Below, in pieces: positions 1-57,020 of a DNA stretch of 64,000 nt (its first letter is position 1; each line of letters starts with the position of its first letter). A model generated the notes under the pieces. That model saw only the letters and a program-made list of their open reading frames with translations, did no database searches and had not been told where the DNA came from. The stretch is from the NCBI GenBank assembly GCA_027063065.1, contig JAMOSO010000007.1:1-64000 (forward strand), given 5' to 3'. A program made the translations under genes and the position numbers. This stretch comes from Planctomycetota bacterium (lineage in GTDB: Bacteria > Planctomycetota > JAMOSO01).

Positions 1-161
1 ACATAATAAATATTTATTATGATTTTAGCTATTACACCAATATATATGATGTAAAAGTATTCCAAAAATCTACTTTACTAAAAACACACCTATTATATTT
101 AGCTATCAATTCCAATTATCTCCCTACAAATGATATGTCAAGTACCTATCACCTTCGTTTC

Positions 162-454
162 ATTCTAAAAATATTCTAAATATCGCTAATAAATCAATAA
201 AATTGACTATCAAAGCTATATCTTGAACGACATTTAGAATAATCACCCAAAATAAGGAGCTTTTTAGAATACATGTTGCTTTAGGGAGATATTTAGAATA
301 TTTAGGTGTTTTATATAATAAATTCTTTAAAAATAAAGATAAACAGAATTATCAAATAAACTAATGGAATACCTAAAGCGATATATAGAATTGACTTAGA
401 GCTCTTTGGACAGTATAAAAAGATAATTGGAATATTGCTAGAGATTTTTAGAAT
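162..454. repeat. Iteron-like repeats, putative replication origin
   Basis: Six copies of the 9-mer WTTTAGAAT lie ahead of the rep-like gene. Two are inverted (162-170, 173-181) and four direct (232-240, 262-270, 291-299, 446-454). Looser copies (TAATGGAAT 362-370, ATATAGAAT 383-391, AATTGGAAT 425-433) sit between. The direct copies at 232, 262 and 291 are 30 and 29 bp apart, near three helical turns, and the inverted pair is 11 bp apart, one turn. This phased arrangement next to an initiator gene fits iterons bound by Rep. The whole stretch 1-572 is AT-rich and otherwise gene-free. Some matches are expected by chance in DNA this AT-rich, but the phasing and position argue for function. Confidence 0.5.
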
Positions 455-4363: not shown

Positions 4364-5215
4364 TTATAAATTTGCAATATCATCAGCATTAAAACTATAT
4401 TCTTTATGGCAAAATTGACAATTTAATGTAACGGCACCTTCTTCTTTTAAAATTGCTTTTAATTCATTGCGATCGATTGTACGTAAAGCTTCTTGTGTAC
4501 GTTTGCGCGAACAAGTACAGCGATATTGAACTATTTTTGGGTTAAATATTTTTAATGGATCTTGGTGATATAGGCGATATAAAAGAGTCTCGTATTCTAC
4601 GCTTAGTAATTCTTCATCGGTTAATGTATTAGCTAATTGGGTGAGACGGTTCCAATTTTCGGCTCTTGTATCTGTATCGCTAATCTTATGCATTGGCATT
4701 TGTTGTAAAATCATAGCGGCAGCGGTTTGACGTCCTTTGTCAGTACCAATGGCAAAATTAAAATGGGTTGGTAATTGTTCTGATTGTATAAAATATTGCG
4801 ATAAGCACTCAGCTAAATTTTTACCTTCTAATGGCACGATACCTTGATAGGGTTTACCATTAGTTGGCTCTATGGTTATAGCTAATGTTCCTTGGGCTAA
4901 TAACGCATTAAAATCACCTTGGATAAAGTTATCTCGTACTTGAGCTATACCTCGTACTTCACGGTTGGAGTCGCATTCCATAACGATAAATGGTATTTCA
5001 CCTTTGGAGCTTGCTTGCAGGCTTAAGCGTCCTTCAAACTTCATAGTAGTGCTTAAAAGTACAGTTGCCACTAAAAATTCACCTAATAAGTTTTTAGCAA
5101 CTTCAGGATAGTCGTGGTTTTGAATTAACTGCTCAAAGCTATCGGTACAGCGAACAAGCTCGCCTCTTATATCAGTATTGTCAAATATAAATCTTTGGGA
5201 TATGTCTAGTTCCAT
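4364..5215 (-). CDS. hslO: Hsp33 redox-regulated chaperone
   Basis: A 283-residue Hsp33, a cytoplasmic holdase activated by oxidation. The C-terminal zinc switch is complete: CTCSRKR (CxC) near 232-238 and CQFCHKEY (CxxC) near 265-272. N-terminal blocks such as LLGEFLVATVLLSTTMKFEGRLSLQ match the family, and the length is near the usual 290. ATG 5215 is the first in-frame ATG. The downstream GH20 gene follows without a gap, an unusual partner for hslO. Upstream a divergent outer-membrane protein gene starts 171 bp away. Confidence 0.93.
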   Translation of the reverse strand: MELDISQRFIFDNTDIRGELVRCTDSFEQLIQNHDYPEVAKNLLGEFLVATVLLSTTMKFEGRLSLQASSKGEIPFIVMECDSNREVRGIAQVRDNFIQGDFNALLAQGTLAITIEPTNGKPYQGIVPLEGKNLAECLSQYFIQSEQLPTHFNFAIGTDKGRQTAAAMILQQMPMHKISDTDTRAENWNRLTQLANTLTDEELLSVEYETLLYRLYHQDPLKIFNPKIVQYRCTCSRKRTQEALRTIDRNELKAILKEEGAVTLNCQFCHKEYSFNADDIANL

Positions 5216-5325
5216 AAAAATCTCTTTAAATTATTATAATGTGGTTGATATATATCGGTTTTTTTTATTTACGACTTAAATGGTATTTAGTTGCGCTTAT
5301 GCGTAGGTGAGTTACTTAATTGTTA

Positions 5326-5353
5326 TTGTAAGTTATGGATACGTTGTTAGAAT
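5326..5353 (+). promoter_or_regulatory. Possible sigma70-type promoter of the barrel protein gene
   Basis: TTGTAA (5326-5331) and TAGAAT (5348-5353) are separated by 16 bp and lie about 34 bp ahead of the GTG start at 5387. The arrangement fits a housekeeping promoter, but hexamers like these are common in AT-rich DNA. Confidence 0.3.
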
Positions 5354-5386
5354 CACGGTTTTAATTTTATTTTCAAGGGGAAAATT

Positions 5387-6073
5387 GTGAAAAAATGTAT
5401 GAAAGTTTTGTCTTTAACTACAGCGTTAATTTGTGGTTCAATTACTTCTTATGCTGCCGATACAGCTGTTACAACTAATACTAATAATTGGGATACTGGT
5501 TTGCGTATTAGTACTTTAGGTGCAGGAGCAGAATTAGGTTATAAATTAAATGATAATTTTAGAATTAGATTAGTAGGTCAAGGTTTTAAATATAGTACAG
5601 ATTATACTGATACGGATTTAACTTATGATGGTGATTTAGATTTATTAACCATTGGACCAATGTTAGATTGGCATCCTTGGGGTGGTAGTTTTAAATTGTC
5701 AGGTGGTTTGTTTTATAATGGTAATGAAGTATCTATGACTGCAAAACCTACTTCTGATGTAAAAATAGGTGATAACACATATTCTCCTTCGGATATTGGC
5801 ACAGTCGATATGAAAGTAGATTTTAATTCTGTTGCTCCTTACTTGGGTTTTGGTTGGGGAAATGCATTTAAAGGCTCTAATTGGACTTTTAATTTTGAAA
5901 TGGGCGCTATGTATCAAGGCGAGGGTGATTTAAGCTATTCTACAAATGGAGCTGCAGTTAATAATGCGGCGTTTCAAGCGGATATTGCAAAAGAACAAGA
6001 TGAATTGCAAGATGAAATTAACAAGTATAAATTTTATCCTGTAATAACATTGGGTTTAACTTATTCTTTTTAA
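5387..6073 (+). CDS. Outer-membrane beta-barrel protein
   Basis: A 228-residue protein with a clear Sec signal peptide (MKKCMKVLSLTTALICGS, cleavage after SYA near residue 23). The mature part alternates polar and hydrophobic residues as in a small beta-barrel and ends in LGLTYSF, with the terminal Phe expected for BAM-inserted proteins. The GTG start is preceded by AAGGGGA (5375-5381) at good spacing; ATG 5399 would shorten the signal. A charged stretch near 200-215 (AKEQDELQDEINKYK) may be an extracellular or periplasmic loop. The gene stands alone and ends in a strong terminator. No substrate can be inferred. Confidence 0.75.
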   Translation: MKKCMKVLSLTTALICGSITSYAADTAVTTNTNNWDTGLRISTLGAGAELGYKLNDNFRIRLVGQGFKYSTDYTDTDLTYDGDLDLLTIGPMLDWHPWGGSFKLSGGLFYNGNEVSMTAKPTSDVKIGDNTYSPSDIGTVDMKVDFNSVAPYLGFGWGNAFKGSNWTFNFEMGAMYQGEGDLSYSTNGAAVNNAAFQADIAKEQDELQDEINKYKFYPVITLGLTYSF

Positions 6074-39868: not shown

Positions 39869-42225
39869 TTTTTTGGATTAATTTTGATTATTTTTTCTGG
39901 TGGGATTTTAACCATGAAGGTTGTCTCTGGCAAAGTGGTATTGTCTGTCTCTAGTAGGCTTAAATGTCCGCCAATTTCGCACATCATATTAAATGCATTG
40001 TGTAATCCAAACCCATAGTGTTTGTTTTTGGTTGTAAAACCGTATTGAAATATACTATCTTTGTTTTTGGCTGGGATAGCTACGCCTTTATTTGATATTG
40101 TAATTTTAATGCCTTGTGTTTCATTGCCACTTAATTTAACCTCTATATTTTGGTTGGGGTTTTCTTCTAATGATTCAATAGCATTATTTAATAGTTCAAT
40201 AAAGACATGGGCTAATTTTGATTTGTTTAATTTGATATTTATGTTTGCGTTTATTTCATTGATCAACGAGATGTTATTTATTAATGCGTTTTGTTTAAAC
40301 AATAAAAGTTCTGTTATCATATTTGTTAGGTTAAATTTTAAGTCAAACTCTGGGTAGCGGGTTAATTTTTTTTGTGATGTAATAGTTTGCGATATTAAGT
40401 CTAAACAATGTTTTAATTCGTTTTGCTGTATATTTATATCGCCATGTAGCTTTAAGATGCCTTTGTAAAAAGATGTTCCAAGTATCGATAGGTGTCTAGA
40501 TTTGTGTTCTATATCAAGATTAGGATTGTTTTTAATTTGATTAAATTCTTGATTTAGGCGTTCAAATGCTTTTAGTTCGTCATTTAAATTGCTAGATAAA
40601 TTGTCGTAGGCAGTGTTGGCAAGTACTAGACTGTTGCCAAATAGGTGCACAATATTGGTGGCTATTTCTGACTTGCCAGATTCATTGGCTTGTTGTAATA
40701 GTTCGGCTTTTACTTTTGCTAGCTCATTGGTGCGGTTGGCAACTTCTTTGCGTAGTTGCTGTTTTACTTCTTCTTGAAATTTAACATATTCACTTACGTC
40801 ATTGATTATTATTACTGCTCCTTGGCTGATAGGGTAAAAGGTAATATTTACTTGTCGTGTTGTATTGTTGTTTTCTAGTTGTAGTGTGATATTTTCTTTT
40901 GTGGTTATACATTTGCATCCGATTGTTTTTTCTATTTCTTTTTTAAAAGGGTTTAATACATTTATGTATTCAAATAATGGGCGACCAGCGATACGGCGAA
41001 TATCTAAATTGATAATTTTGCTTGCTGCTCTATTGGCAGTGGTAATAATTAATTTATGATCAATGACAAATATAATAGCGGGCATTGAATCTATTATGTC
41101 TGTCAAATTATTGCGGGATTTAATTACGTTATCTCTCTGGGTTTGGATATGTCTAAATGCTTTTTCAATAGCATTGCCAATAACATTAAAGTCTTTTACT
41201 ACAGTTTTTGTAAATGGTTTTATATTTGTGTAGGCTGTTTCGGAGTTTCTAATATATGTTAAAAGCTTAGATAGAGGTTTGTTTATAAAGAACGAAAAAA
41301 ATAATAAGATAATTAAAATAATAATTATGTAAGCGACTGTTAATATTGGAAATTTATATTTGAATGTAGTAGGGGCTTTTTTAAGTGGGCTAGCTAATAT
41401 TATATTTAACTTATTTTGTGTTTTGTTGTTATGTAATGGGTATGATTTACAATATATGGTATTTGCTTTAGTGTGTTGTTCTATCAAATTGTATGGTGTA
41501 TCTGTAAAGCGTAGTCCAATTTGTGATTTGGCGATATGTTTTGTAAATTCTTGGTAAAAACCTACTATGGGTTTATTGTTATAGGTTATTAAAAAATCTT
41601 TATTATTTAGAATTTGAATAATTTTTGAATATATATTTAAGTTGTTGTTAATAATGGTTGCGCCTGTAATGGTTGCAATGACTTCGCCATCTTGACTTAA
41701 GATTTCTTTGGAGCTTACTTGATAAAGCTTGATTTGTTTTTGATCATCGACAAATGAATATATAGAAGCATCGTCGTTATTGACGTTTTGTACGATTGAA
41801 TTTAAAGTTTTTTTGCTGTACATACCCAAGCTTAGATTTAGCCAAACTTTGTTATTTTTTGTGATAAATAATATTTCACTCTGTTCAATTTCAGAAAACA
41901 ATATAATGCTATCTGCTTCGTTTAAGGTGGGTTGTTTTTGATTTGATTTTATAAGTTGAGAAAATCTTTTATTATTAGCTAAGTTAGATATGAAATTTTC
42001 GAGTTGCTTCCAATTTAAGTTAAGGCTGTACTCAATTGAAAGTTTGTTGTGATCAAATTGTGAGTTGACTTCATTTTTTAATATTTTTTGTGAATAATCA
42101 TTGATTTCTAGGTATAGTCCACCTAGCCCGATGGCGGATATTAGTGTTATAAGTAAGATACTTAAATTAATTACTTTCCATTTGTTATTTGTTTTATCGT
42201 TTGGCATTAGAGTATCGAAAAGCAT
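39865..42225 (-). CDS. LuxQ-like membrane sensor histidine kinase
   Basis: A 786-residue kinase: span 1 (about 19-38), a 250-residue periplasmic sensor, span 2 (about 292-314), a HAMP-like region, a PAS domain (about 375-485) and a coiled coil. The dimerisation helix has H527 in ATNIVHLFGNSL, the HNVGN-type H-box variant, and a HATPase end carries HVFIELLNNAIESLEENP and KHYGFGLHNAFNMM. Its start overlaps the luxP-like gene by 32 bp (ATG 42225; ATG 42207 would still overlap by 14). This order and overlap match Vibrio luxPQ. Unlike LuxQ it lacks a receiver domain, so it needs a separate response regulator, not found here. Confidence 0.8.
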   Translation of the reverse strand: MLFDTLMPNDKTNNKWKVINLSILLITLISAIGLGGLYLEINDYSQKILKNEVNSQFDHNKLSIEYSLNLNWKQLENFISNLANNKRFSQLIKSNQKQPTLNEADSIILFSEIEQSEILFITKNNKVWLNLSLGMYSKKTLNSIVQNVNNDDASIYSFVDDQKQIKLYQVSSKEILSQDGEVIATITGATIINNNLNIYSKIIQILNNKDFLITYNNKPIVGFYQEFTKHIAKSQIGLRFTDTPYNLIEQHTKANTIYCKSYPLHNNKTQNKLNIILASPLKKAPTTFKYKFPILTVAYIIIILIILLFFSFFINKPLSKLLTYIRNSETAYTNIKPFTKTVVKDFNVIGNAIEKAFRHIQTQRDNVIKSRNNLTDIIDSMPAIIFVIDHKLIITTANRAASKIINLDIRRIAGRPLFEYINVLNPFKKEIEKTIGCKCITTKENITLQLENNNTTRQVNITFYPISQGAVIIINDVSEYVKFQEEVKQQLRKEVANRTNELAKVKAELLQQANESGKSEIATNIVHLFGNSLVLANTAYDNLSSNLNDELKAFERLNQEFNQIKNNPNLDIEHKSRHLSILGTSFYKGILKLHGDINIQQNELKHCLDLISQTITSQKKLTRYPEFDLKFNLTNMITELLLFKQNALINNISLINEINANINIKLNKSKLAHVFIELLNNAIESLEENPNQNIEVKLSGNETQGIKITISNKGVAIPAKNKDSIFQYGFTTKNKHYGFGLHNAFNMMCEIGGHLSLLETDNTTLPETTFMVKIPPEKIIKINPKN

Positions 42226-43279
42226 ATTCTTTAATTTTTTTCAGTTCTGCTTTAGTGGTGTTTTGGTCGATAATTTTCATGGAACCAGAATATATAATAG
42301 GCTTAGGTAATTTTTGGGCTTCTATATTTAGTTTAATTGCTTCGGCCATCGCAACACCATTGTCATCGTTAAGGCGCATTACTGTAAAAGCCATATCTTT
42401 TTTTGCTATTGATTTAAGCTCGTCGCTGCCTCCGCCCCAACCATTAACTATGGGTGGGTTTGATATGTCGCTGTCTTTAATTGCCGATATTGCGCCTAGT
42501 GCAATGTCGGTGCTACAGGCGTATATAAAATCTAGCGAGTGTTGTTTTTTTAGTATTTTTGCTGTTGCTGTTTTAGCTGTTTGAAAATCAGCTTTAGTAT
42601 AAAACGCATTGGTTAGTGTGAATTTAGACTTTTTAAATAAGTTTGTAAAATACAGGCCTCTTTGTCTGTTTATGGGAGAGTTTCTTAAGAAATATAAAAT
42701 ACCAAAATTTATTTTTTCTTTTTTGGCAAAGATTTTTTTATATTTATCGGCTAGCATTTTAGTGCCTTTGCGGTGAGAAAATCCAACATACATAAATGGT
42801 GGTGTGTTGCGCCATTTTTCTAGTGGCTCTACTAGGTTTTGAATAATTACTTTTGTATTTTTGGCAGCTAGAAGGTTAGAGATGGTTATTTCGTCGCTTT
42901 TAGAGCTAATAGTAGTTACAAGATAATCTGGTTGTAGCAACATGGCTTTTTGAATGGCGATATGTGCTTTGCGTTTTTCGTAAATGGCGGTGGAAAATTC
43001 ATAAAGTTTATAATTTATTTTTAATTCTTTCATACGTGCTTCAAATGATTGTATGCTACGTCTCCAGTAATCGGAATTTTGTTTTAGAGGTGTTGCAAAC
43101 GCTATTGTTACATTCTTGTTTTGTAGGTTGGCTTTTATTGGTCTTGCAGGGGTTTTTATAATTTTTTGAAAGTTATCTTGAAAGCGTGTAGCTGTTTGTG
43201 TGTTATCTGCGAAGGTGTTGGCTAAAATGTTGCAGTTGGAATAGTTACAAATTAAAAATAATAGGATAATAATACGCAT
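42194..43279 (-). CDS. luxP: LuxP-like autoinducer-2 binding protein
   Basis: A 361-residue periplasmic binding protein with an N-terminal signal (MRIIILLFLICNYSNCNILA). It matches Vibrio LuxP block by block: QNSDYWRRSIQSFEARM, FIYACSTDIALGAISAI, VNGWGGGSDELKSIAKKD and TVMRLNDDNGVAMAEAIK. Residues that contact AI-2 in LuxP have counterparts: Q67, S69, W72, N148, R207, T257, D258, W281 and R302. This points to a furanosyl borate-type AI-2 receptor rather than a ribose-binding protein. It overlaps the downstream sensor kinase gene, as luxP does luxQ. Confidence 0.88.
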   Translation of the reverse strand: MRIIILLFLICNYSNCNILANTFADNTQTATRFQDNFQKIIKTPARPIKANLQNKNVTIAFATPLKQNSDYWRRSIQSFEARMKELKINYKLYEFSTAIYEKRKAHIAIQKAMLLQPDYLVTTISSKSDEITISNLLAAKNTKVIIQNLVEPLEKWRNTPPFMYVGFSHRKGTKMLADKYKKIFAKKEKINFGILYFLRNSPINRQRGLYFTNLFKKSKFTLTNAFYTKADFQTAKTATAKILKKQHSLDFIYACSTDIALGAISAIKDSDISNPPIVNGWGGGSDELKSIAKKDMAFTVMRLNDDNGVAMAEAIKLNIEAQKLPKPIIYSGSMKIIDQNTTKAELKKIKEYAFRYSNAKR

Positions 43280-43311: not shown

Positions 43312-43351
43312 AATACAATGGCTTTTGCCGTAGTTCAAAAGCCATTGTATT
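43312..43351. terminator. Strong hairpin after the 100-residue membrane protein gene
   Basis: AATACAATGGCTTTTG (43312-43327) pairs perfectly with CAAAAGCCATTGTATT (43336-43351), a 16-bp stem with an 8-nt loop. On the minus strand it separates the small gene at 43360 from luxP. The T run is weak. Confidence 0.65.
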
Positions 43352-45839: not shown

Positions 45840-47612
45840 ATGTTACCTAAAAAAGATTTTGTTTTTCTGGATAACGCATTAAAAAGTGAATCTGGTTTTG
45901 GTTTTGGAAAGCATCAATTGCTTTTTACTAACCCACATAAGCAGTTGGTGTTAAAATCATTTAAACAGGTCAATTCATTTTTTGATGATATAGAAAGGTT
46001 ATCTAAAAATTTTTGGTTAGCTGGATATTTTACTTATGAGCTAGGTCATTATTTTAATACAGGTATAGCCAAAGCAATAAATACTCCACTGGCTTGGCTT
46101 GGTGTATTTGATGAACCAAAAGAACCAAATCAAAATTTTTTATCGATGACGCAATCATTTGATATGTCCCAAGGGGCTTTATCACAAACCAAGCAAGAAT
46201 ATTTTAAAGCTATTGATTTAATTAAATTAGCCATTGAATCAGGTGTTACTTATCAGGTTAATTATTGTTTAGCATATTTGTTTAAACTCTGCGGAGATCC
46301 GTGGGGGCTTTATAAATTTATGCGTTCTCAACAACCAGTGTCCCATGGGGCTGTATTACAATGTGCAAATATGTGGGCTATTTCAGCTAGCCCAGAATTG
46401 TTTTTTAATTGTAAGTCAAATAAATTACGATCCAAGCCTATGAAGGGTACAGCTTGTCGAGGGCGTAATAATTATGAAGATAACCAACAATCTAAATGGT
46501 TGCAAAATGATATAAAATCACGGGCAGAAAATGCAATGATTGTAGATTTATTACGCAACGATATTGGGGCGTTATCTGAGTTGGGCTCAGTTAAAGTGAA
46601 AAATTTATTTGATATAGAAAAATACCCAAGCTTATTGCAAATGGTATCTAGCGTTGAAGGTAAATTAAAAAACAATACATCTTGGCAAACAATGTTTACA
46701 AAGTTATTTCCCTGCGGTTCTATTACTGGTGCGCCAAAAATATCTACGATGCATTTAATTGATCAATTAGAGACTCGGCCTAGAGGTGTTTATACAGGTG
46801 CAATAGGTTATATACATAAAAATTTAGCAGAATTTTCTGTGCCGATCAGAACGGTTCAGTTACAAGAAAATCCCTTGGGTGATTTTAATGCAAGCTTAGG
46901 CTTAGGTAGTGGAATTATTATGGATTCTGATGCACAATCAGAGTTTGATGAATGTTTACTAAAAGCAAAATTTTTGCAATATAGATACCCAGATTTCCAA
47001 TTGTTAGAAACTATGTTATGTAAAAATGGTACTATAGAGTTATTGGATTATCATTTAAATCGAGTGCGAGAGTCGGCTATTTATTTTGGATGGGATTTAA
47101 ATCATCAGTTAATTAAGCAACAAATATTGTCTTTAATCGTAAGCTTAAAGGGATATTATCGTATCAGAATGTTAATTTTTAAAGATGGTCGATGTAAAAT
47201 TGAAAAATTTTCTTTTAAAACAGATAAATCTAATCAATTACTTAATGTAACAATTAGTAATCAGCGTATAGATTTGAAAGATTGTTTTCATTTGCATAAA
47301 ACTACTAATAGAAGTTTTTACGATAAGCAATTTTCTATGGCACAAAAACGGGGCTTTGCAGATATTGTATTTTGTAATAAAGATGGTTTGCTTACACAAG
47401 GTGCTATTAGCAATATTTGGATTAAGCGTAAAGGTGTACTATTGACCCCGCCTGTTTATGTGGGTGCGTTGCCAGGTGTTTATCGCCAATATTTATTGGA
47501 TAGGGGGGCAAAAGAATCAAAATTATATTTAGATGATTTAAAAAATGCAGATGAAATATATTTATCTAATGCCCTGCGTGGTTTGCGCAGGGTTACATTA
47601 AATATTAATTAA
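45840..47612 (+). CDS. PabB-PabC fusion (aminodeoxychorismate synthase I and lyase)
   Basis: A 590-residue fusion for 4-aminobenzoate synthesis on the folate route. Residues 1 to about 375 are chorismate-using PabB: SASPELFFNCKSNKLRSKPM near 181-200, MKGTACRGRNN, IVDLLRNDIGALSELGSVKV and GSITGAPKISTMHLID with the conserved GAPK. Residues about 385-590 are a PLP fold-type IV lyase (ETMLCKNGTIELLDYHLNRV, LHKTTNRSFYDKQF with the PLP Lys, LTQGAISNIWIKRKG). The amidotransferase partner PabA is not in the window. It follows cobT by 1 bp and ends 8 bp inside the convergent methyltransferase gene. Confidence 0.92.
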   Translation: MLPKKDFVFLDNALKSESGFGFGKHQLLFTNPHKQLVLKSFKQVNSFFDDIERLSKNFWLAGYFTYELGHYFNTGIAKAINTPLAWLGVFDEPKEPNQNFLSMTQSFDMSQGALSQTKQEYFKAIDLIKLAIESGVTYQVNYCLAYLFKLCGDPWGLYKFMRSQQPVSHGAVLQCANMWAISASPELFFNCKSNKLRSKPMKGTACRGRNNYEDNQQSKWLQNDIKSRAENAMIVDLLRNDIGALSELGSVKVKNLFDIEKYPSLLQMVSSVEGKLKNNTSWQTMFTKLFPCGSITGAPKISTMHLIDQLETRPRGVYTGAIGYIHKNLAEFSVPIRTVQLQENPLGDFNASLGLGSGIIMDSDAQSEFDECLLKAKFLQYRYPDFQLLETMLCKNGTIELLDYHLNRVRESAIYFGWDLNHQLIKQQILSLIVSLKGYYRIRMLIFKDGRCKIEKFSFKTDKSNQLLNVTISNQRIDLKDCFHLHKTTNRSFYDKQFSMAQKRGFADIVFCNKDGLLTQGAISNIWIKRKGVLLTPPVYVGALPGVYRQYLLDRGAKESKLYLDDLKNADEIYLSNALRGLRRVTLNIN

Positions 47613-48615
47613 TTTTTTTTGCTTCAATTAGCCAGTGAGGCAATGGGGCTGGCAATTTTGTGGTGCAAGCATTTTTAAAATTGGCATTACTTAACCATTG
47701 TTTTATTTCTGTATCGCTAAAAACCCACCCATTGTCAGTAGTGAGAGCCATATTGATAGCAAACAAAGCCGAAAACGTAGGTTGTGTATGGGTTTTATCT
47801 GTCATCATATCTAAAATATAAATTTTACCACCCGGTTTTAAAGCTGTATAAGCTTTTGATAATAACTTTTTTATGTCCTCGGGACTTTCTTGGTGTAGCA
47901 TACCAAAAAAATTAATGGCATCCATATTTTGTGGAAATTCTATTTCATGATAACTACCTGCTAAAGTGCTAACTTGTTGATCCATATTATGATCGGTAAT
48001 GATTTCTTGCGCCACTTTTACGACTTCTGGTAAATCTAGTACGATTGATTTTAATCGTGGGTAGGCTTTGGCAATTAAAATGGAGTATGTGCCGGGGCCA
48101 CCACCAATATCAAGTAGTCGTGAACAATTGTTATAATCTAAGTGTGGTATTAGACCTTTGCCAATTGCCATAGCTCTACCGTGCATTGAATAAACAAAAG
48201 TTCTAGTTCTGTTTAAATCACTGCCTAGGTGTATTTCTGGTTTTTCTACTGGCTTACCAGATTTAATTAATTGTGGCAATTTACCCCATGCATTATATAC
48301 ATCACGGTTATAGCGAATGGCTTTAGATAAATCTGCGGGTGAATTTTCACTTAAAAATATGGAGCTTATTTCTGTATTATTATAGGTATCATTATTTTTT
48401 TGTAATAATTGTAGGGCGACACAACCATCTAACAATAATCTTGCACCACGTGTATCTATTTTTAAATCTTTGCTGATGTGTTGAATATCTTGATTTGGAT
48501 TGTTTTGTAGATATGTAAAAACACCTAAATCACTGGCAGTGAATAAAATACAAGAGTCATAAAAAGCAGAAGCCATATCAGTAATATATTTTGGATTTAT
48601 TTTATTAGATTGCAT
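47605..48615 (-). CDS. O-methyltransferase (acetylserotonin-type), ebo cluster
   Basis: A 336-residue SAM methyltransferase of the plant-type family 2/ASMT group. It has an N-terminal winged-helix dimerisation domain (about 1-95, SDLGVFTYLQNNPN) and a C-terminal Rossmann domain with motif I LLDIGGGPGTYSILIAKAYP near 166-185, GSYHEIEFP, and catalytic-type INFFGMLHQESPEDIKKLL near 230-248. These enzymes methylate hydroxyl groups of small aromatic or polyketide-like metabolites. It overlaps EboE by 11 bp, so it probably decorates the cluster's product. Confidence 0.86.
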   Translation of the reverse strand: MQSNKINPKYITDMASAFYDSCILFTASDLGVFTYLQNNPNQDIQHISKDLKIDTRGARLLLDGCVALQLLQKNNDTYNNTEISSIFLSENSPADLSKAIRYNRDVYNAWGKLPQLIKSGKPVEKPEIHLGSDLNRTRTFVYSMHGRAMAIGKGLIPHLDYNNCSRLLDIGGGPGTYSILIAKAYPRLKSIVLDLPEVVKVAQEIITDHNMDQQVSTLAGSYHEIEFPQNMDAINFFGMLHQESPEDIKKLLSKAYTALKPGGKIYILDMMTDKTHTQPTFSALFAINMALTTDNGWVFSDTEIKQWLSNANFKNACTTKLPAPLPHWLIEAKKIN

Positions 48616-49726
48616 TTATTTTCTCCATGGCGAAATAGTATTCGTTAATAATTGATTTGGTTAAACCAATATTTTGTAAATTTGTTGGCAGTACATTAAA
48701 AGTGTAGGTTTCGATTTCAAAATGTTTTACACCAATTTTTAAAGCCGTTTTAAAAAAATCTAAATCAATTTGATTATTGGTAGTTTTTATATTGTCATAA
48801 CCATTAAAATAAATCGGCAAATGAAAATGTATTCTCATCTCTTGCCATAAATCAGTATTTTGTTGCATAATGTCTGGTGATAAATCGCTAAAACTTAAAA
48901 TATTTTTATTTGTTTTTATTTTAACTTGATGTAAATATTTATCATCGTAAAACTCGTGCAATAAATTTTGTTGAAAATTTTTATCAATACGCAAAGCGGA
49001 AGATATTTGTATTTTATTAATAGGTATATTGGCGGCGTGTAGATTAAGTAAGCTTTGGGTTAAGTTCTCATATTGAATAGCTAAATGGCAGGTATCAAAA
49101 CATAGTCCAATATATTGTTGAGTTATATTATTTAATTGTTGATAAAAATCAATAAATTCTTGGCTAGTTTCTATACAACAGTCAGGTTCTGGTTCAATGG
49201 CAATATCAATATGTTTGCCAGTTTTTAATTCTATGTGTTGTAAAAATAGAGCAATATCATTTAATTTTTTTTTGGATTGTTTAATTTTATCCCAAGAATT
49301 ATTATTGGTTTTATATGAGATGGGTATACTACTAATCGATCCATTAATATTGTCTGGTAATAGCTCAGCCATAATATTGCAAACTCGTTTAGAGTATTGC
49401 AATCTTTCTGATGAGGTCCAGTCGGGATAGTATACCTTTGTTTTTAAATTTGGAGTAAAAAAATCACCATAGGGAAAAGCATTTATTGTAAAACAATATA
49501 AATTATGTTTGATTAAAAACTCTTTAAATCTGTTTAAATTATTTGGTTTTTCTAGCTCTATAGAGGCTTTATTAGATAGGTATAAACCTAATCCAAATGG
49601 TTGATCAGGGCATATTTGATTTTTTATTTTTAGTGAATATTCTTTAATAGCTAAGGAAATTTCATCAATATTATTTGCATTATGTACGTTAAGGCAATAG
49701 GTTAAATGGCAATTTTGAATTTGCAT
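48605..49726 (-). CDS. eboE: EboE-like TIM-barrel protein
   Basis: A 373-residue protein of the EboE group, related to xylose-isomerase-like TIM barrels. Diagnostic stretches are CHLTYCLNVHNANNIDEI near 6-23, CPDQPFGLGLYLSNKASIEL near 40-59, FTINAFPYGDFF near 82-93, VYYPDWTSSERLQYSKRVC and CFDTCHLAIQYENL near 213. The family is tied to the ebo cluster, needed in a cyanobacterium for export of a scytonemin precursor; its chemistry is undefined. It lies between EboD and the methyltransferase, tightly packed on the same strand. Confidence 0.82.
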   Translation of the reverse strand: MQIQNCHLTYCLNVHNANNIDEISLAIKEYSLKIKNQICPDQPFGLGLYLSNKASIELEKPNNLNRFKEFLIKHNLYCFTINAFPYGDFFTPNLKTKVYYPDWTSSERLQYSKRVCNIMAELLPDNINGSISSIPISYKTNNNSWDKIKQSKKKLNDIALFLQHIELKTGKHIDIAIEPEPDCCIETSQEFIDFYQQLNNITQQYIGLCFDTCHLAIQYENLTQSLLNLHAANIPINKIQISSALRIDKNFQQNLLHEFYDDKYLHQVKIKTNKNILSFSDLSPDIMQQNTDLWQEMRIHFHLPIYFNGYDNIKTTNNQIDLDFFKTALKIGVKHFEIETYTFNVLPTNLQNIGLTKSIINEYYFAMEKINAI

Positions 49727-49742
49727 ATTTAATAAATGTCAG

Positions 49743-50891
49743 TTAAAAATGAGTATTGATAATATGAGCTATTAATTCAAAATCCATTTGATGTATTTCT
49801 TGTGATGAGCCAATAGATGTTGGTAATGTTATATTAAGCTTTCCACCTAGGTGGGTTCTAAATTCTTCTAGGCCTTTTAATATTTCTAATTTTTTATTTT
49901 TATCTTTCTTGTGTAAAAAACTGCTGTTTAAAACTAAACCACAGTTCTGCATGGTTTGTAAAATATGTTTACATTCAGATAAGCCAATCATATTTTTATA
50001 ATGAGCATAGCGTACATCTAAGGCAATGCCAATGGCTACAGATTGACCGTGGTTTAATGAATATTGACTTAAACTTTCTAATTTATGTGCAGCCCAATGA
50101 CCAAAATCTAAAGGTCTTGCCGAACCAAATTCAAAAGGATCGCCATTTGTAGCGATATGATTTAAATGGATTTGTGCACACTTTATGATAACTTTTTCGA
50201 TAGAGTTTTCATCGCGCGCTTTCAAAAGTGGGGCAAAAGTTTCTAATAATTTAAAAAAAGAAGAGTCTTTAATAATAGCTACTTTAAAAGCTTCTGCTAA
50301 GCCGCCACTCCAATATGATAAAGGTAAAGAATGTAAAAAATCAAAATCATTAATTACTGCAAAAGGCGGAGCAAAAGTTCCTAAAAAATTTTTATAATTA
50401 TCTAAATCAATACCGTTTTTCACTCCAACGCCAGCGTCATTTTGGGCTAATACGGTACTGGGAAGTCTAACAAGTCGTAGCCCTCTATGTACAAGGCTAG
50501 TTGCTAAGCCTACAGAGTCTAGCATACTGCCTCCGCCAATTGCTATCACAAAGCTATGTCGACACGGATTTACAGTTTTTAAAATTTTTAAAATTTGCTT
50601 AAATGATTCTGTGTTATTTTTCTGTCGTTCACCACCGACGGTAATTTGTGGTTGTATAAGTAGATTTAATTGTTTGCAATAATGTTGAAAATACTTATTT
50701 ATATTATTTATTAATTGTGGTTGGGCAATAGCTAAGCCATCATCAACAAATATAATCACTTTGCTTTTTTGTGATGTAGAAGAAAGTAATGTTTGTAATA
50801 ATAAAGGATTGTTGCAATTAAAAATATCTCGACAAAAATGCACAGGATATGAAAAATCAACTTTAAATTTTTGAATAATAGTCTGTGTCAT
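49743..50891 (-). CDS. eboD: EboD-like 3-dehydroquinate synthase homologue
   Basis: A 382-residue sugar-phosphate cyclase homologue. NAD and metal-binding features are seen in IAIGGGSMLDSVGLATSLVH near 116-135, VRLPSTVLAQNDAGVGVKNG near 140-159 and DFGHWAAHKLESLSQYSLNHGQSV with the metal His residues near 265-290. Context and a long N-terminal insertion place it with EboD rather than housekeeping AroB. Its start overlaps the EboC stop (TAATG). Substrate unknown, likely a sugar phosphate or phosphorylated ketose. Confidence 0.86.
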   Translation of the reverse strand: MTQTIIQKFKVDFSYPVHFCRDIFNCNNPLLLQTLLSSTSQKSKVIIFVDDGLAIAQPQLINNINKYFQHYCKQLNLLIQPQITVGGERQKNNTESFKQILKILKTVNPCRHSFVIAIGGGSMLDSVGLATSLVHRGLRLVRLPSTVLAQNDAGVGVKNGIDLDNYKNFLGTFAPPFAVINDFDFLHSLPLSYWSGGLAEAFKVAIIKDSSFFKLLETFAPLLKARDENSIEKVIIKCAQIHLNHIATNGDPFEFGSARPLDFGHWAAHKLESLSQYSLNHGQSVAIGIALDVRYAHYKNMIGLSECKHILQTMQNCGLVLNSSFLHKKDKNKKLEILKGLEEFRTHLGGKLNITLPTSIGSSQEIHQMDFELIAHIINTHF

Positions 50892-51775
50892 TAGCTTGTA
50901 TAAAAATGTTTACGTAAAAGTTTGTTAGTATTAAATAATATTAAAGCTACCCCCGCAAATATTAAACCTAATTTATTATATAAACCGATTAGGGCAGTTT
51001 GAAAGAATATTAAATTAGTTATTAAGACACCGACTATTTGAATGGTAATATTAGATTTGACAGTGCCTGATAATATGTAAGAGCATTTAAATGCAGTGGC
51101 GGTTGAAATCAAAGCTAATATTACAAAATAGATACTGGGTTGGTTTTGGATAGTTAAGATATAACTAAGGGTTATAAATAAAGTCCCAAAAGGCATAAAT
51201 TTTAACCAACCTATTTTTGTGTCTTGTCTTTCATTATAGGCAATCATTGTTACGCTCATAATATATAGGCTTTCGCCTATCGCCACGATTAAGACAGTAA
51301 TATGGGTAATGCTTTGCCAACCCAATATACTAGCACCCATAAACAAACTTAACCCACGACATAACCCCATAAAGATGCCAGCTAAAACGTTGTTTTTTTT
51401 GGCCCACATATTATATATTAAAATATTTAGCGTTAAAATTATGGCTATGATGCCTGTGGTTTTTGAAGTATACAACCCTAAAAAAATGCCAACACATAAT
51501 AAAAATACCGCAACGATTTTAGCATGAAATGGATTTATTTCTTGGGTAACTAAAGGGCGTTTTAACTGATTATTTGTATCTTCGTTAATATCGATAATAT
51601 CATTAATAATTAAGCCTGCACAATAAAACATTATTGAAGCTAACATAATAGGATATGCCTGTTTAAAACTTATAATTTTATTTAAACTAACAGCTGCAAT
51701 ACAAAACCCAGCAAGCGCATCACCGGGTACAGTTAAAATGTTTGGTAAGCGTATTAATTTTAACCAAGCATACAT
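50891..51775 (-). CDS. eboC: EboC-like UbiA-family prenyltransferase
   Basis: A 294-residue polytopic protein with about eight spans. The first Asp-rich motif is in YCAGLIINDIIDINEDTNNQ near 48-67, NxxxDxxxD type, followed by KRPLVTQEINPFHAK, as in UbiA enzymes that prenylate aromatic or other acceptors. The second motif is less canonical (YNERQDTKIGW near 177). ATG 51775 (MYAWLKLIRLPN) follows the SDR stop at once; the frame could extend to 51814 inside the SDR gene. It overlaps EboD. Confidence 0.85.
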   Translation of the reverse strand: MYAWLKLIRLPNILTVPGDALAGFCIAAVSLNKIISFKQAYPIMLASIMFYCAGLIINDIIDINEDTNNQLKRPLVTQEINPFHAKIVAVFLLCVGIFLGLYTSKTTGIIAIILTLNILIYNMWAKKNNVLAGIFMGLCRGLSLFMGASILGWQSITHITVLIVAIGESLYIMSVTMIAYNERQDTKIGWLKFMPFGTLFITLSYILTIQNQPSIYFVILALISTATAFKCSYILSGTVKSNITIQIVGVLITNLIFFQTALIGLYNKLGLIFAGVALILFNTNKLLRKHFYTS

Positions 51776-51776
51776 T

Positions 51777-52502
51777 CTACGCCCAAGGTGTCGAAGAATT
51801 ACGATGAATATCAATTTGGTCTATTACGCCCGATGTTCTAGTAAGTAAAAACAGTACAGTCTCAGCTATTTCTTGTGTTTTAATTAATGCGTTGCGATCT
51901 AAATCAGGTCTGGAAGCAGCAACCATTTCTGTGTCTACGCCACCAGGGCAGATGGCATGGACACGGATATTGTCGTTTTGTAGTTCCTTACCTAAAACTT
52001 TACTCATTCCCATTAAAGCATGTTTAGATGCTGTGTAAGCCGCTTGGTTTACATAACCTTTTTGTCCTACCACCGAAGCTATATTTACAATTGCTCCACC
52101 ACCGTTACTTCTTAGATGTTGTATGATTTCACGAGATAAAATAAAAGGGGCTCTAGTATTGCTAGCCATAATTAAATCCCAAGTTTCTACGCTAGTTTTT
52201 TCTAGTGGTTCAAAGATACCAAATCCAGCATTATTGATTAAAAAATCAATTTTTCCTGTTAGTTCAGATGCTTTTTTAATCAGAGATATACATTCAGACT
52301 CTTCTAATAGATTAGCGGTGATAATATGGGCTTTACCGCCAGCTTGTGATATGCTTTTTGCTACTGCATCTAATAAAGCTATTTGACGCCCAGTGATAAT
52401 TACAGTTGCTCCTTGCTTTGCAAGTGTTTGTGCAATGCTAGCACCAATACCACGAGATGCTCCAGTTACTAAAGCTACTTTACCAGTTAAGTCTAAATTC
52501 AT
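51777..52502 (-). CDS. Short-chain dehydrogenase/reductase in the ebo cluster
   Basis: A 241-residue classical SDR: TGASRGIG cofactor motif near 14-21, NNAG near 90, catalytic Ser in VNIASVVGQ, and YTASK (YxxxK) near 154. It is probably NADP(H)-dependent judging from the TGR after the second strand. It is inserted between EboB and EboC, where standard ebo clusters carry no such gene to my knowledge, so it may reduce or oxidise the cluster's product. Confidence 0.9.
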   Translation of the reverse strand: MNLDLTGKVALVTGASRGIGASIAQTLAKQGATVIITGRQIALLDAVAKSISQAGGKAHIITANLLEESECISLIKKASELTGKIDFLINNAGFGIFEPLEKTSVETWDLIMASNTRAPFILSREIIQHLRSNGGGAIVNIASVVGQKGYVNQAAYTASKHALMGMSKVLGKELQNDNIRVHAICPGGVDTEMVAASRPDLDRNALIKTQEIAETVLFLLTRTSGVIDQIDIHRNSSTPWA

Positions 52503-52513
52503 AAATCCTCTTT

Positions 52514-53344
52514 TTAACGTTGAAAACTTTTTATTTCCAATGGTTTTAAATCAAAGTTAGGTTTAAATTTTCCAGAATAAGAATAAAAATTCAAGGCATT
52601 ATTGTGAGTTAGATTGTTAATATCTTCTTGACTATGACCATCTTTTTGCATTTGTGTTACAGTATCTACCAATGCTAGGGGGTTAGAAACTCCCCAGTCA
52701 GCACTACCATTGACCATCATTTTTTGAGAGCCATATTCTTTTATAATATTAGAAACTCTTTGAGGAGTTAGTTTTGATACAGGATATACAGTAAAACCGC
52801 AAAAGTAACCTGAAGCGTACGAGGCTGCAATGGTTTCTTCGGTGTTGTGATCTATTAAGGCCATATCTGTTGGTACTTGCATTTCTTTTAATATATCAAT
52901 AGAGCGCAAAGTTCCCTTTAATTTATCTTCATGTGGCGTATGTAACATAATTGGTAAATTATGCTTTAAGGCAACTTCTATTTGGGCAATAATCGATAGT
53001 TCTTCATTTTTAGTATTATTATTAAACCCAATTTCACCGACACACAAACATCTGTCGTGATTTAGGTATTCGTCCATACCTGCAATCACCTCTTTAGCAA
53101 GCCCTACATCTTCGCTTTCTTTTGGATTCATGGCAATATTAGACCAATGATCAATTCCAAACCTAGAAGCGCGCAAGGTTTCAAATTCTAATGATAATTG
53201 AAAGTAGTCAAAAAAACTACCTGCGTAACGTCTGTTGCTACCTTGCCAAAAAGATGGTTCGACACAAACCCTAATGCCAGCTTTGTACATAGCTTGGTAA
53301 TCTTCGGTTGTGCGTGAAAGCATATGAATATGTGGTTCTATCAT
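52514..53344 (-). CDS. eboB: EboB-like TatD-family metal hydrolase
   Basis: A 276-residue metal-dependent hydrolase: HxH in IEPHIHMLS near 4-6, Glu in VGEIGFNNNT near 108, His in PIMLHTPHEDK near 141, His in LIDHNTEET near 174, and Asp in GSADWGVSNP near 223. The complete set implies an active two-metal site. EboB-type members share the RRYAGSFFDYFQLSLEFET stretch. The ATG overlaps the preceding stop (TAATG, 53342-53346), so translation is coupled to the prenyltransferase-repeat gene. Confidence 0.84.
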   Translation of the reverse strand: MIEPHIHMLSRTTEDYQAMYKAGIRVCVEPSFWQGSNRRYAGSFFDYFQLSLEFETLRASRFGIDHWSNIAMNPKESEDVGLAKEVIAGMDEYLNHDRCLCVGEIGFNNNTKNEELSIIAQIEVALKHNLPIMLHTPHEDKLKGTLRSIDILKEMQVPTDMALIDHNTEETIAASYASGYFCGFTVYPVSKLTPQRVSNIIKEYGSQKMMVNGSADWGVSNPLALVDTVTQMQKDGHSQEDINNLTHNNALNFYSYSGKFKPNFDLKPLEIKSFQR

Positions 53345-54588
53345 TATGGCTCCTGTGTTGATAGTTTAAATTCTGTTGCTAAAGCAAATTTTTGAGCTAT
53401 TACTGCGTAAGCTGTGGTTAATTCGGGGATGTTTTCCCAAAAACGACCATTTTCATTTATCCAATGTCCATCAGCTTTTTGTATGGATATTAGCTTTGTG
53501 ATTAATTCTGGTCGCCATTTATGTTTTTGTTTATCTGGTGTTTGAATTGTTTCTATTTTCATTGCATCTAGCGCTTTTGATGCGGTCATATAGTAATAGT
53601 ATAATGCCGAGTTGCCTGCTTTTGGGTTCTTTTTAAATTTTGGATCTTCAAGCTTTGGATTGCGTTCCCAGGTATAGTGCTTTTGAATCCAATCAAATGC
53701 TTTTTGTACTTTTTCTGTCATTTCTGGAGTATGTAAATTTGCATAGACTAAAGATTTTACTCCGGCGTAAGTCATAGAACCATAACTGCGACTGCGTTCG
53801 GCTTTGTAAGTGCCAGTTTCGTATCTAAATCCGCCGTCATTTGTGGCGTAATCCATTTTATTATATTTTGTATTTTGACAACGATTTAAAAAAATTAATG
53901 CCTTTTGCCAGTGTAGTCCTAGTTCTTTTTCTTCTTTTTGCATTTCTTTTTTGGAAGGCAAAATAGTTTTAAATGATTGCATATATAATTCTGCTTCATG
54001 TATTGCATCTAAAGCCATTTGTGTATTTGATAAATCTGGACGTGTATCTCCACCGTAGCCAATACCACCATAAAATTTATGATTTTTATTAAAGCCTTCG
54101 CCCTCGTCTAATTGAAATTTAACTAAAAAATCATGAGCATTTTTGACAATATCTTTATATTTTGGATCACGAGTTTGTGCAAATGCCATTAAACATACAG
54201 CTGTTATATAATTGCGGTATTCTTTTTTGTAAATACCACCATTTTTTTGTACAAAGCCCTTTAGAAAATTAAATCCGGCTTCTACAGATTGATTGGTTTT
54301 GTTGTCATTGATATAAAAGTTAGATTGAGGATCTAACACTATCGAGTATAACACCATGGCAGTTATAGGAGCAGAATCGCACCAAGAACCATTTTTTTGT
54401 TGTTGTAACATTAAAAAAGTATGAGCTTGAGCTAAGCTATGTTTGCTTTCTTTGAGTAGTGATAGAGGCAAGTGATCATCGGCTTTTATAGGGGCGCAGA
54501 CTATTATCAGACATAGTAAATACAATGGTAGTATGCGATTGACAAATATGTCTGTTGTATGTGTTTTTAAGTCTTTTGTGAAAAGCAT
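53344..54588 (-). CDS. Prenyltransferase/squalene-oxidase repeat protein (secreted)
   Basis: A 414-residue protein with an N-terminal span or signal (ILPLYLLCLIIVCAPIKA). The rest is an alpha/alpha toroid with QW-like repeats: FLMLQQQKNGSWCDSAPITA near 58-77 and LISIQKADGHWINENGRFWE near 370-389. The fold is shared by terpene cyclases, but the catalytic Asp motifs of squalene-hopene cyclase are not apparent, so enzyme activity is doubtful. It is coupled to EboB by a 1-bp stop/start overlap. Proteins of this type abound in PVC bacteria. Confidence 0.75.
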   Translation of the reverse strand: MLFTKDLKTHTTDIFVNRILPLYLLCLIIVCAPIKADDHLPLSLLKESKHSLAQAHTFLMLQQQKNGSWCDSAPITAMVLYSIVLDPQSNFYINDNKTNQSVEAGFNFLKGFVQKNGGIYKKEYRNYITAVCLMAFAQTRDPKYKDIVKNAHDFLVKFQLDEGEGFNKNHKFYGGIGYGGDTRPDLSNTQMALDAIHEAELYMQSFKTILPSKKEMQKEEKELGLHWQKALIFLNRCQNTKYNKMDYATNDGGFRYETGTYKAERSRSYGSMTYAGVKSLVYANLHTPEMTEKVQKAFDWIQKHYTWERNPKLEDPKFKKNPKAGNSALYYYYMTASKALDAMKIETIQTPDKQKHKWRPELITKLISIQKADGHWINENGRFWENIPELTTAYAVIAQKFALATEFKLSTQEP

Positions 54589-54590
54589 TT

Positions 54591-55274
54591 TTACTCCTTG
54601 GATTTTTTTATAATAATCAAAATTTTTTGATCGATGGATATATCAATGTCACTAGGGTGAGTCATAATAAACCCTGCATTTTCATTTTGATATGGATTCT
54701 GACCAGTGTTAAATAAATTTAATGGCGCACTTGAATCTGGCCAAATACCAATATAACAAAAATCAATATCAGCCATATATTTATTGTTTGTGCTAAAACA
54801 TCCCCCTGTATAAACCCAAGTTAAATTTTTATTTTGGTAATCTTTAATTTCTCTATTTCGCAGAAAAAGGGCGGGGGAGAGCTGTGTATCATATAAATAT
54901 AAATTAATATTAAATATAGAGTTAGGGTATTTGTGTTTTAGTTGTTGCAGACCATTTGTCATTTTTTGATATTTCATTAATTCTGCAAAAGGTACAGGCT
55001 CGGAGCCTATAAGTAATAATGCAAAGTTTAATTCTGAACCTTTAGTTTTTGAGTCTACTTTAAAGGCAGATTCGTAAGTTTTGCCCTCTTCGCCAACTAG
55101 GAAGTATTCTAATATGTCGTGTTTAACAGCAAATGATGCTTTAATTTGTATTTCGGACGTTTGTTTATTAATTGAAATGTTATTGATTTTAATAGTTTCG
55201 TGTTTCAGAGAGGGTTTGGCTAAAATTTGATTTGTAAATACGGTAAAAAATATAATTAAGATGAGGTATTTCAT
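54591..55274 (-). CDS. YdjY-like secreted protein
   Basis: About 227 residues with a signal peptide (MKYLILIIFFTVFTNQILA). The mature protein begins LKHETIKINNISINKQTSEI and contains ILEYFLVGEEGKTYESAF near 64-81, which resembles the YdjY domain found in planctomycetal secreted proteins. I chose ATG 55274 because ATG 55298 lies inside a strong hairpin. It precedes the repeat-protein gene by 2 bp. Confidence 0.55.
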   Translation of the reverse strand: MKYLILIIFFTVFTNQILAKPSLKHETIKINNISINKQTSEIQIKASFAVKHDILEYFLVGEEGKTYESAFKVDSKTKGSELNFALLLIGSEPVPFAELMKYQKMTNGLQQLKHKYPNSIFNINLYLYDTQLSPALFLRNREIKDYQNKNLTWVYTGGCFSTNNKYMADIDFCYIGIWPDSSAPLNLFNTGQNPYQNENAGFIMTHPSDIDISIDQKILIIIKKSKE

Positions 55275-55289
55275 TATTTTTAAAGGTAA

Positions 55290-55324
55290 GATGCCCATAT
55301 TAAATTTTATTTGATATGGGCATC
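55290..55324 (-). terminator. Hairpin between the two repeat-protein operon parts
   Basis: GATGCCCATAT (55290-55300) and ATATGGGCATC (55314-55324) form a perfect 11-bp stem with a 13-nt loop, just after the 55333 stop on the minus strand. The T run is weak, so it may attenuate rather than end transcription into the ebo cluster. Confidence 0.5.
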
Positions 55325-55332
55325 TTATATAA

Positions 55333-56952
55333 TTAATGTGCGGCGTAACGCCAAAAGACTTCCATAGAAAGTGTATTAAAACAAGTTACACCGGTTCTGC
55401 CTAATTTATTTTCTCCATGCTGATGTCCTTTGACGGCGTCTACAGCCCAGCTACCATTAGTTAAACCACCTGACTTGTCTTGAGTTGGAGGCAGACATTT
55501 TAACATACCATCACGCCAGGTTTTCCAATATTTACCACCCATTTGAAAATTTACTAATGCGCCATAATACATGGCATAATAGCCGTTTGCTCGATTTTCT
55601 TTGCCTGTTGGTCTGGTTGGAACGTATTTTTTACTTAATAAATATTTTGCTGGTTTTACCAATTGTGGATCGGTTTTTTTCATGCCAAAAAATTCTTTAA
55701 TACACATAACTACTAACGTCATAGTAGGGGTGCCAAAGTTGGCGTGTCCTTTTAATGGGGACTGATAGTTGCCCTGAAAATTTTTCTTGCCATCTGTGGT
55801 AGCGCGGTCAAAAGCAGCTAAAGCTTTTTTGATTTTTCGTTCATTTAATTTTAAATGAGCTAGTTTAGCAGATTTTATTGCCATCATTTGCCAGCCAGCA
55901 ACAGACGTGTCATTTTTTCCATCTGGCTGTTTTTTATTTTTTGTTTCTCCAGTGGAGTATCCCCACGAACCCGCATTGTTTTGTGCGGCAAAGACCCAGT
56001 TGATGGCTTTTTGAGCCGCCGCTTTGGTTTTGCTTTTGTTAGCCATAGCTGCTGCTTCTGCTAATGCCATAGTGGCTATACCATTGATGTAAGTTCCTCC
56101 ATGTCCAAAACCGCCGTCATTTTTATGTTGTTGTTTTAATAAAAATTTAATGGCGTTTTTAACATTTTTACGATATTTACCCGCTATTTCAGTATGGCCA
56201 GCCCCTAAAAAACAAAGTACAGCTAAACCTGTGATTGCAATATCATTTTTATCAGGTTGGGGATTGGCATTGGGCTCTTTTGACCAAGAACCATCATTTC
56301 GTTGTACGCGGGCTAAATATTTTAAAGCGCTTTCAACTGTTTCAATTACTTGTTTGCCACCGCCACCTCTAGCAACAGCTTTTCTGCGTCCTTTTTTGGA
56401 ACCACGAGCAGCTAACATACCACCTTTAATGGCTCCGCCAGCATCGCCTACGCCAAATACGCCTAATTCTTCGCCTCCTACTGGTGCGTCAAACGAAACA
56501 TCTGATATTTGTTCGTCGGATACTTCGGTTTCTTCAAAGGCGTCAACTTCAATGTCGGTTTCTACTTCGATATTATCTTCTACTACTTCTTCTTCAACAA
56601 CATCGTCAACTTCAACGTCATCAACTTCGACTTCTTTTTCTTCTAACTTTTCTTTTAATTCTTCTTTTTCTTTGTCTTGTACTTGTTCAATCATTTCTGA
56701 TTGCACAACAACAACCTCTTCTTGATCTTTTGCTTTCATAGTTACTATTAATGTCATTAAAAAAATAACAACTCCGTGGGCAGCAAAAGAAATAAACCAC
56801 CATGGTGATGATTTGATTTGGTCATCAATAATTTGTTTAAGGCTCTTTTTTTCGTAAAAACTTTCAATCAACTCATTATGACCACTATATTCACCTTCAT
56901 GAATTTCCTCTTCGTGGTTTGGTGTTTCGTCAATTTCTTGATTGTCTGACAT
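55333..56952 (-). CDS. Anchored acidic-linker protein with prenyltransferase repeats
   Basis: A 539-residue protein. A short acidic cytoplasmic start is followed by one span (WWFISFAAHGVVIFLMTLIV, about 48-67). A long Glu/Asp/Val-rich linker comes next (about 75-150, VEVDDVEVDDVVEEEV), then a Gly/Arg-rich patch, and from about 200 an alpha/alpha toroid with repeats YLARVQRNDGSWSKEPN and NNAGSWGYSTGE. The linker resembles the TonB-like spacer that crosses the periplasm. ATG 56952 has GAGGA at good spacing; TTG 56964 is less likely. It lies downstream of scpB and upstream of the ebo genes. Confidence 0.75.
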   Translation of the reverse strand: MSDNQEIDETPNHEEEIHEGEYSGHNELIESFYEKKSLKQIIDDQIKSSPWWFISFAAHGVVIFLMTLIVTMKAKDQEEVVVVQSEMIEQVQDKEKEELKEKLEEKEVEVDDVEVDDVVEEEVVEDNIEVETDIEVDAFEETEVSDEQISDVSFDAPVGGEELGVFGVGDAGGAIKGGMLAARGSKKGRRKAVARGGGGKQVIETVESALKYLARVQRNDGSWSKEPNANPQPDKNDIAITGLAVLCFLGAGHTEIAGKYRKNVKNAIKFLLKQQHKNDGGFGHGGTYINGIATMALAEAAAMANKSKTKAAAQKAINWVFAAQNNAGSWGYSTGETKNKKQPDGKNDTSVAGWQMMAIKSAKLAHLKLNERKIKKALAAFDRATTDGKKNFQGNYQSPLKGHANFGTPTMTLVVMCIKEFFGMKKTDPQLVKPAKYLLSKKYVPTRPTGKENRANGYYAMYYGALVNFQMGGKYWKTWRDGMLKCLPPTQDKSGGLTNGSWAVDAVKGHQHGENKLGRTGVTCFNTLSMEVFWRYAAH

Positions 56953-57020
56953 AATTATCCTCAAATTACAATTGTAAGTTTACAAATGATTTACGCTTTA
57001 AAATTCAAAAGGTTCAAAAA

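Follow-up and report, generated by a model that had tools for sequence, protein, structure and literature searches.

Previous studies reported LuxP homologues beside PAS regulators in luxS-negative Neptuniibacter, Marinomonas (Oceanospirillales) and Desulfuromonas, and the idea that luxS-negative LuxP carriers sense the AI-2 of others dates from the same work of 2008 (PMC2561040). A survey of 2025 lists 267 LuxP proteins, mainly from Proteobacteria, with AI-2 binding reported for three LuxPs from Proteobacteria and Deferribacterota, and mentions planctomycetes for LsrB (PMC12268683); a gut-microbiome paper of the same year describes LuxP as exclusive to Vibrio (PMC12503165). No paper in our literature search described a LuxP from Planctomycetes or Lentisphaerae. 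Here we analyzed a stretch of 64,000 nucleotides (the window) carrying a luxP-type gene and an adjoining sensor kinase gene (Table 1). The preliminary description held that LuxP with the full ligand set is mainly known from Vibrio and relatives; their rarity elsewhere was thereby somewhat overstated (PMC2561040, PMC12268683). Since LuxP homologues from luxS-negative bacteria other than Vibrio were reported in 2008, the window LuxP is new in kind no more than they are, but its phylum is apparently new for LuxP, and its partner kinase has a core differing from that of Vibrio LuxQ.

The locus resembles Vibrio LuxPQ in the homology of LuxP over its length, the presence of all AI-2 contacts (9/9), and a kinase gene directly after luxP, whose product has two transmembrane (TM) segments near residues 30 and 300 and a LuxQ-type periplasmic domain between them. 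However, Pfam finds a PAS domain in the window kinase but none in the LuxQ of V. campbellii (L038), and the window kinase has neither the HE(I/L)RTP H box nor the receiver of Vibrio LuxQ; moreover, no LuxS was found in the window genome, and the LuxU/LuxO pathway is not established there. The systems described in 2008 share a luxS-negative host and a LuxP homologue that forms an operon with a signalling gene containing PAS, but their hosts are Pseudomonadota or former delta-proteobacteria (PMC2561040). The Marinomonas relative in our own set (L004) has lost most contacts, and luxS is present in its genome. In a genome of the same phylum as the window (G240), a LuxP-like protein likewise adjoins a kinase (862 aa), and the two LuxPs group together, but most AI-2 contacts are lost in G240, and its kinase ends in a receiver domain and passes Pfam PF09308 (LuxQ-periplasm), which the window kinase does not. 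LsrB of the Lsr uptake system shares the broad periplasmic binding protein family and the AI-2 ligand class, but it has 0/9 LuxP contacts and lies outside the LuxP clade, and the window luxP has no transporter neighbours.

Table 1. Features of the luxP/kinase locus in window coordinates, parts of the kinase in residues of its product, and counterparts of the V. harveyi LuxP contact residues.
Feature	Size	Position	Strand	Remark
luxP-type periplasmic binding protein gene	361 aa	42194..43279	-	ATG start, TAA stop, complete ORF
Membrane sensor kinase gene	786 aa	39865..42225	-	next gene downstream of luxP
Kinase/luxP overlap	32 nt	42194..42225	-	end of luxP and start of kinase gene
Long inverted repeat, near-perfect	16 pairs	43312..43351		between upstream 100-aa membrane-protein gene and luxP
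Kinase, LuxQ-type periplasmic domain		residues ~40-295		
Kinase, PAS		residues 377-462		
Kinase, candidate histidine		H527		
Kinase, HATPase_c		residues 669-777		
V. harveyi Q77, S79, W82		Q67, S69, W72		KQNSDYW
V. harveyi N159		N148		IIQN
V. harveyi R215		R207		RQRG
V. harveyi T266, D267		T257, D258		ACSTD
V. harveyi W289		W281		NGWGGG
V. harveyi R310		R302		TVMR

LuxP family membership and AI-2 contact residues

When the window LuxP was searched with phmmer against PDB chains, V. harveyi LuxP was the top match (225 bits, E 7e-66, residues 46-358) and the second family, the ribose-binding proteins, reached 30 bits; full-length LuxP homology thus stands clearly above that to other sugar-binding proteins, which confirms the preliminary description of a LuxP-type protein. 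The overall identity is about 34%, and the hydrophobic N-terminus was read as a signal peptide. The protein passed the cut-off of Pfam Peripla_BP_4 (70 bits) and reached none of the NCBIfam equivalog cut-offs. An AlphaFold model from a two-row alignment was poor (pLDDT 44).

The preliminary description had also proposed a phylogeny with LuxP and RbsB/LsrB, and had named a grouping with ribose- or xylose-binding proteins without LuxP as the result that would speak against the family call. In our tree of 32 rows, E. coli proteins included, the LuxP-like clade was split from RbsB, AlsB, XylF, YtfQ, LsrB and TorT at 100/99, and the window protein lay within it, in a nested subclade that also held Vibrio LuxP, Marinomonas and G240 (100/99), which supports its membership in the LuxP family. 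It paired with G240 at 83/95, a moderate support involving a long branch, and its fine placement within the subclade is unsure because the outgroup branches are long.

V. campbellii LuxP (L038), which has Q77, S79, W82, N159, R215, T266, D267, W289 and R310 at the same numbers, served as the reference for the contact sites. All nine (9/9) have counterparts in the window LuxP, as previously claimed, that of R215 by way of a one-residue gap. R215 is the sole ambiguous site: the window loop is one residue longer (LRNSPINRQRG vs SEGYISDVRG), and MAFFT pairs R215 with Q while phmmer sets the RG motif on RG. We estimate that nine of nine pre-named sites at about 34% identity lie far beyond chance (about 6e-5 if the sites are independent). 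Judged from its aligned residues, the protein appears to have the boron-diester contacts whose absence from the pocket was the second result named against the family call. In the same alignment, 9/9 contacts were present in every full-length LuxP row of the Vibrio clade and in four Pseudomonadota rows lying further away, 5-7 in Ruegeria-/Roseicitreum-type paralogues, which have no LuxQ-type kinase, 2-3 in Marinomonas-type LuxP, about 2-3 in the LuxP-like protein of G240, and 0-3 in the six E. coli binding proteins (RbsB, LsrB, TorT, AlsB, XylF, YtfQ).

Three LuxP-bearing Pseudomonadota genomes (G490, G644, G458; loci L035, L036, L037) contain a second, diverged LuxP-like paralogue, and the two paralogues examined (L058, L061) keep 6/9 contacts and have no adjoining LuxQ-type kinase. 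The Ruegeria-type paralogue is located in an ABC transporter cluster. In addition, plasmid pRA01 of Roseicitreum antarcticum (L008) encodes at 4839-5975 a LuxP-like binding protein with 7/9 contacts; because ABC transporter genes surround it and an annotated lsrK lies nearby, this LuxP-type protein may function in the uptake of AI-2.

The adjoining LuxQ-like sensor kinase

The membrane sensor kinase gene was absent from the preliminary description. Its overlap with luxP suggests translational coupling; a later in-frame ATG of the kinase (MPNDK) would cut the overlap to 14 nt. The TM segments of the kinase peak near residues 30 and 303, compared with 27 and 292 in Vibrio LuxQ. Pfam PF09308 had no match in the kinase at E up to 1. 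Profiles built from Vibrio LuxQ alone were too narrow, matching just the GEVLG...NNN motif (E 0.002), and wider LuxQ-type profiles were used. Against these, hhalign aligned the sensor domain over 172-173 columns with a score of 51 (E 3e-7); excluding G240 from the profiles gave 48 (E 1.3e-6). The controls scored far lower: 22 for the highest among 100 shuffled sequences, 15 for the reversed sequence and 19 for TorS. The motif common to the sensor domains is GEVIATITGATIINNNLNIY in the window kinase and GEVLGYLHIGVVMNNNFALI in Vibrio. Moreover, BLASTP matched the window kinase to that of G240 (E 6e-8) over a region that begins at residue 45 and ends with the second TM segment. The AlphaFold model of the periplasmic domain was poor (pLDDT 34).

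In the cytoplasmic core, HATPase_c scored 48.7 bits, above the Pfam cut-off, and no Response_reg (receiver) domain was found by Pfam in the 786 residues. H527 in IVHLFGN is a candidate phospho-acceptor, and the N box (LLNNAIE) and the F/G2 boxes (GFTTK and GFGLH) are present. The G1 box, as we read it, is weak, with ISNKGVAI at residue 710 instead of the usual Asp-containing box, and kinase activity could therefore be altered. The gene thus lies next to luxP and encodes two TM segments and a LuxQ-type periplasmic domain, but not a hybrid kinase with a receiver feeding LuxU/LuxO, and we describe its product as LuxQ-like, not as LuxQ.

In the homologous loci inspected, including Vibrio luxQ and the same-phylum G240, the genes of the LuxP subclade are directly followed by a membrane sensor protein. 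The sensor is fused to hybrid kinases in L038 and L054, to PAS kinases without receiver in L047 and L056, and to a HisKA_3 kinase in L057, where it was assigned by position and topology with no PF09308 match; the Marinomonas-type sensor proteins had no recognised Pfam kinase domain. Because the sensor is joined to such varied outputs across loci, luxP plus sensor looks like a conserved unit.

Neither transporter genes nor a cognate response regulator adjoin the window pair. Receiver-domain matches number 57 in the genome (G000, 2.1 Mb), and many fall on a single contig (C48), so candidate partners of the kinase exist; this small genome is rich in sensory genes. The inverted repeat upstream of luxP is a possible transcription boundary. 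Elsewhere in the window, a minus-strand gene run (47605-56964) encodes xylose-isomerase-like and 3-dehydroquinate-synthase-like proteins, a TatD-like hydrolase, a methyltransferase, a short-chain dehydrogenase, a UbiA-like prenyltransferase (by reading) and a final protein with a squalene-hopene-cyclase C-terminal match; the run resembles an ebo-type cluster.

Host, distribution and signal source

The 16S rRNA gene of the genome contains the EUB338-II and PLA46 sites with 0 mismatches and the EUB338-III site with 1 mismatch. PLA46 serves as a Planctomycetes probe (PMC8243005, PMC12323593). The host is thus probably a planctomycete of the PVC group, and these mismatch-free matches to EUB338-II and PLA46 uphold the PVC, non-Vibrio setting suggested earlier from the neighbouring genes. 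Among 391 other genomes of the phylum, a clear LuxP relative was found in one (G240, with most contacts lost). In a Pseudomonadota sample, 19/398 genomes gave hits; a scan of the wider genome contig set gave one relative (Marinomonas), and a scan of viral contigs gave none.

LuxS (PF02664) had no match in the genome, whose assembly is 90% complete, so that a luxS gene could have been missed, and S-adenosylhomocysteine hydrolase was likewise not found in this 90% complete assembly. LuxS was found in 0/199 genomes of the phylum (the window genome and 198 others sampled), with positive controls. AI-2 quorum sensing comprises a producer and a responder, and luxS was not detected in the same genome as this putative responder. 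Since LuxS was found neither in the genome nor in the sampled phylum, the likeliest role of the pair would be to sense the AI-2 of other species.

Among the 45 genes of the window, luxP and the kinase gene ranked first and second in codon deviation (leave-one-out, synonymous codons), with GC contents of 34% and 30% against 33% for the contig, AT-rich like the contig itself. As the two strongest outliers in codon usage, they were probably acquired horizontally as a unit. Assembly contamination is disfavoured, and transfer fits better, because the pair lies mid-contig, its GC is ordinary and codon choice alone deviates.

Proposed mechanism and alternative explanations

We consider it rather probable that the locus is a two-gene, horizontally acquired LuxPQ-like AI-2 receptor operon in a planctomycete-type host without detectable LuxS, in which LuxP binds foreign AI-2 and docks on the kinase. 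Periplasmic LuxP would bind extracellular AI-2 released by other species, most likely in the borated S-THMF form because the counterparts of R215 and R310 are kept, and would dock on the neighbouring kinase at its LuxQ-type periplasmic domain; ligand binding would in turn alter phosphorylation by the kinase of a response regulator encoded elsewhere.

In an alternative that we regard as unlikely, the sensor pair would keep the LuxP fold and largely LuxP-like pocket residues, but its ligand would have changed to a different small molecule, for example a sugar, a furanone AI-2 mimic or another borate diester. Such a shift would agree with the drift of the relatives in G240 and of the Marinomonas type, both down to 2-3 contacts and both with adjacent sensor proteins, with the lack of LuxS-made AI-2 in the genome and the sampled phylum, and with the altered R215 loop; however, the retention of nine contacts at about 34% identity, like Vibrio LuxP and unlike the drifted relatives, argues against it. 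It is considerably less probable that the pair is a non-signalling remnant, with LuxP intact and the kinase inactive through decay of the ATP-binding G1 box: the ISNKGVAI region is what such decay might leave, but both reading frames are open over their full length, the N, F/G2 and candidate H (H527) boxes are present, and HATPase_c lies above its cut-off. An ordinary binding protein for ribose or a related sugar, belonging to an ABC transporter and LuxP-like by fold alone, is the least probable of all; although the protein shares Peripla_BP_4 with RbsB and LsrB, this explanation was rejected on the score (225 bits for LuxP vs 30 for ribose-binding proteins), the tree, which sets the protein outside RbsB, AlsB, YtfQ and XylF, and the neighbourhood, with a sensor kinase gene adjoining and no transporter genes.

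Returning to the AI-2 receptor operon, whether AI-2 acts as a one-way cue between species could be tested directly on this LuxP, which is intact and has a LuxQ-type partner, in a phylum whose searched genomes yielded no LuxS. The loci compared suggest that the LuxQ-type sensor domain has been attached to several different kinase outputs, with its association to LuxP retained. Further, we see an even chance that LuxP and the LuxQ-type periplasmic domain form a mobile module that crosses phyla, is joined to varied kinase cores and allows bacteria that do not make AI-2 to eavesdrop on it, this planctomycete-type genome being the first reported case from its phylum with a seemingly intact AI-2 pocket. 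A bacterium far from Vibrio may thus listen in on the AI-2 of other species.
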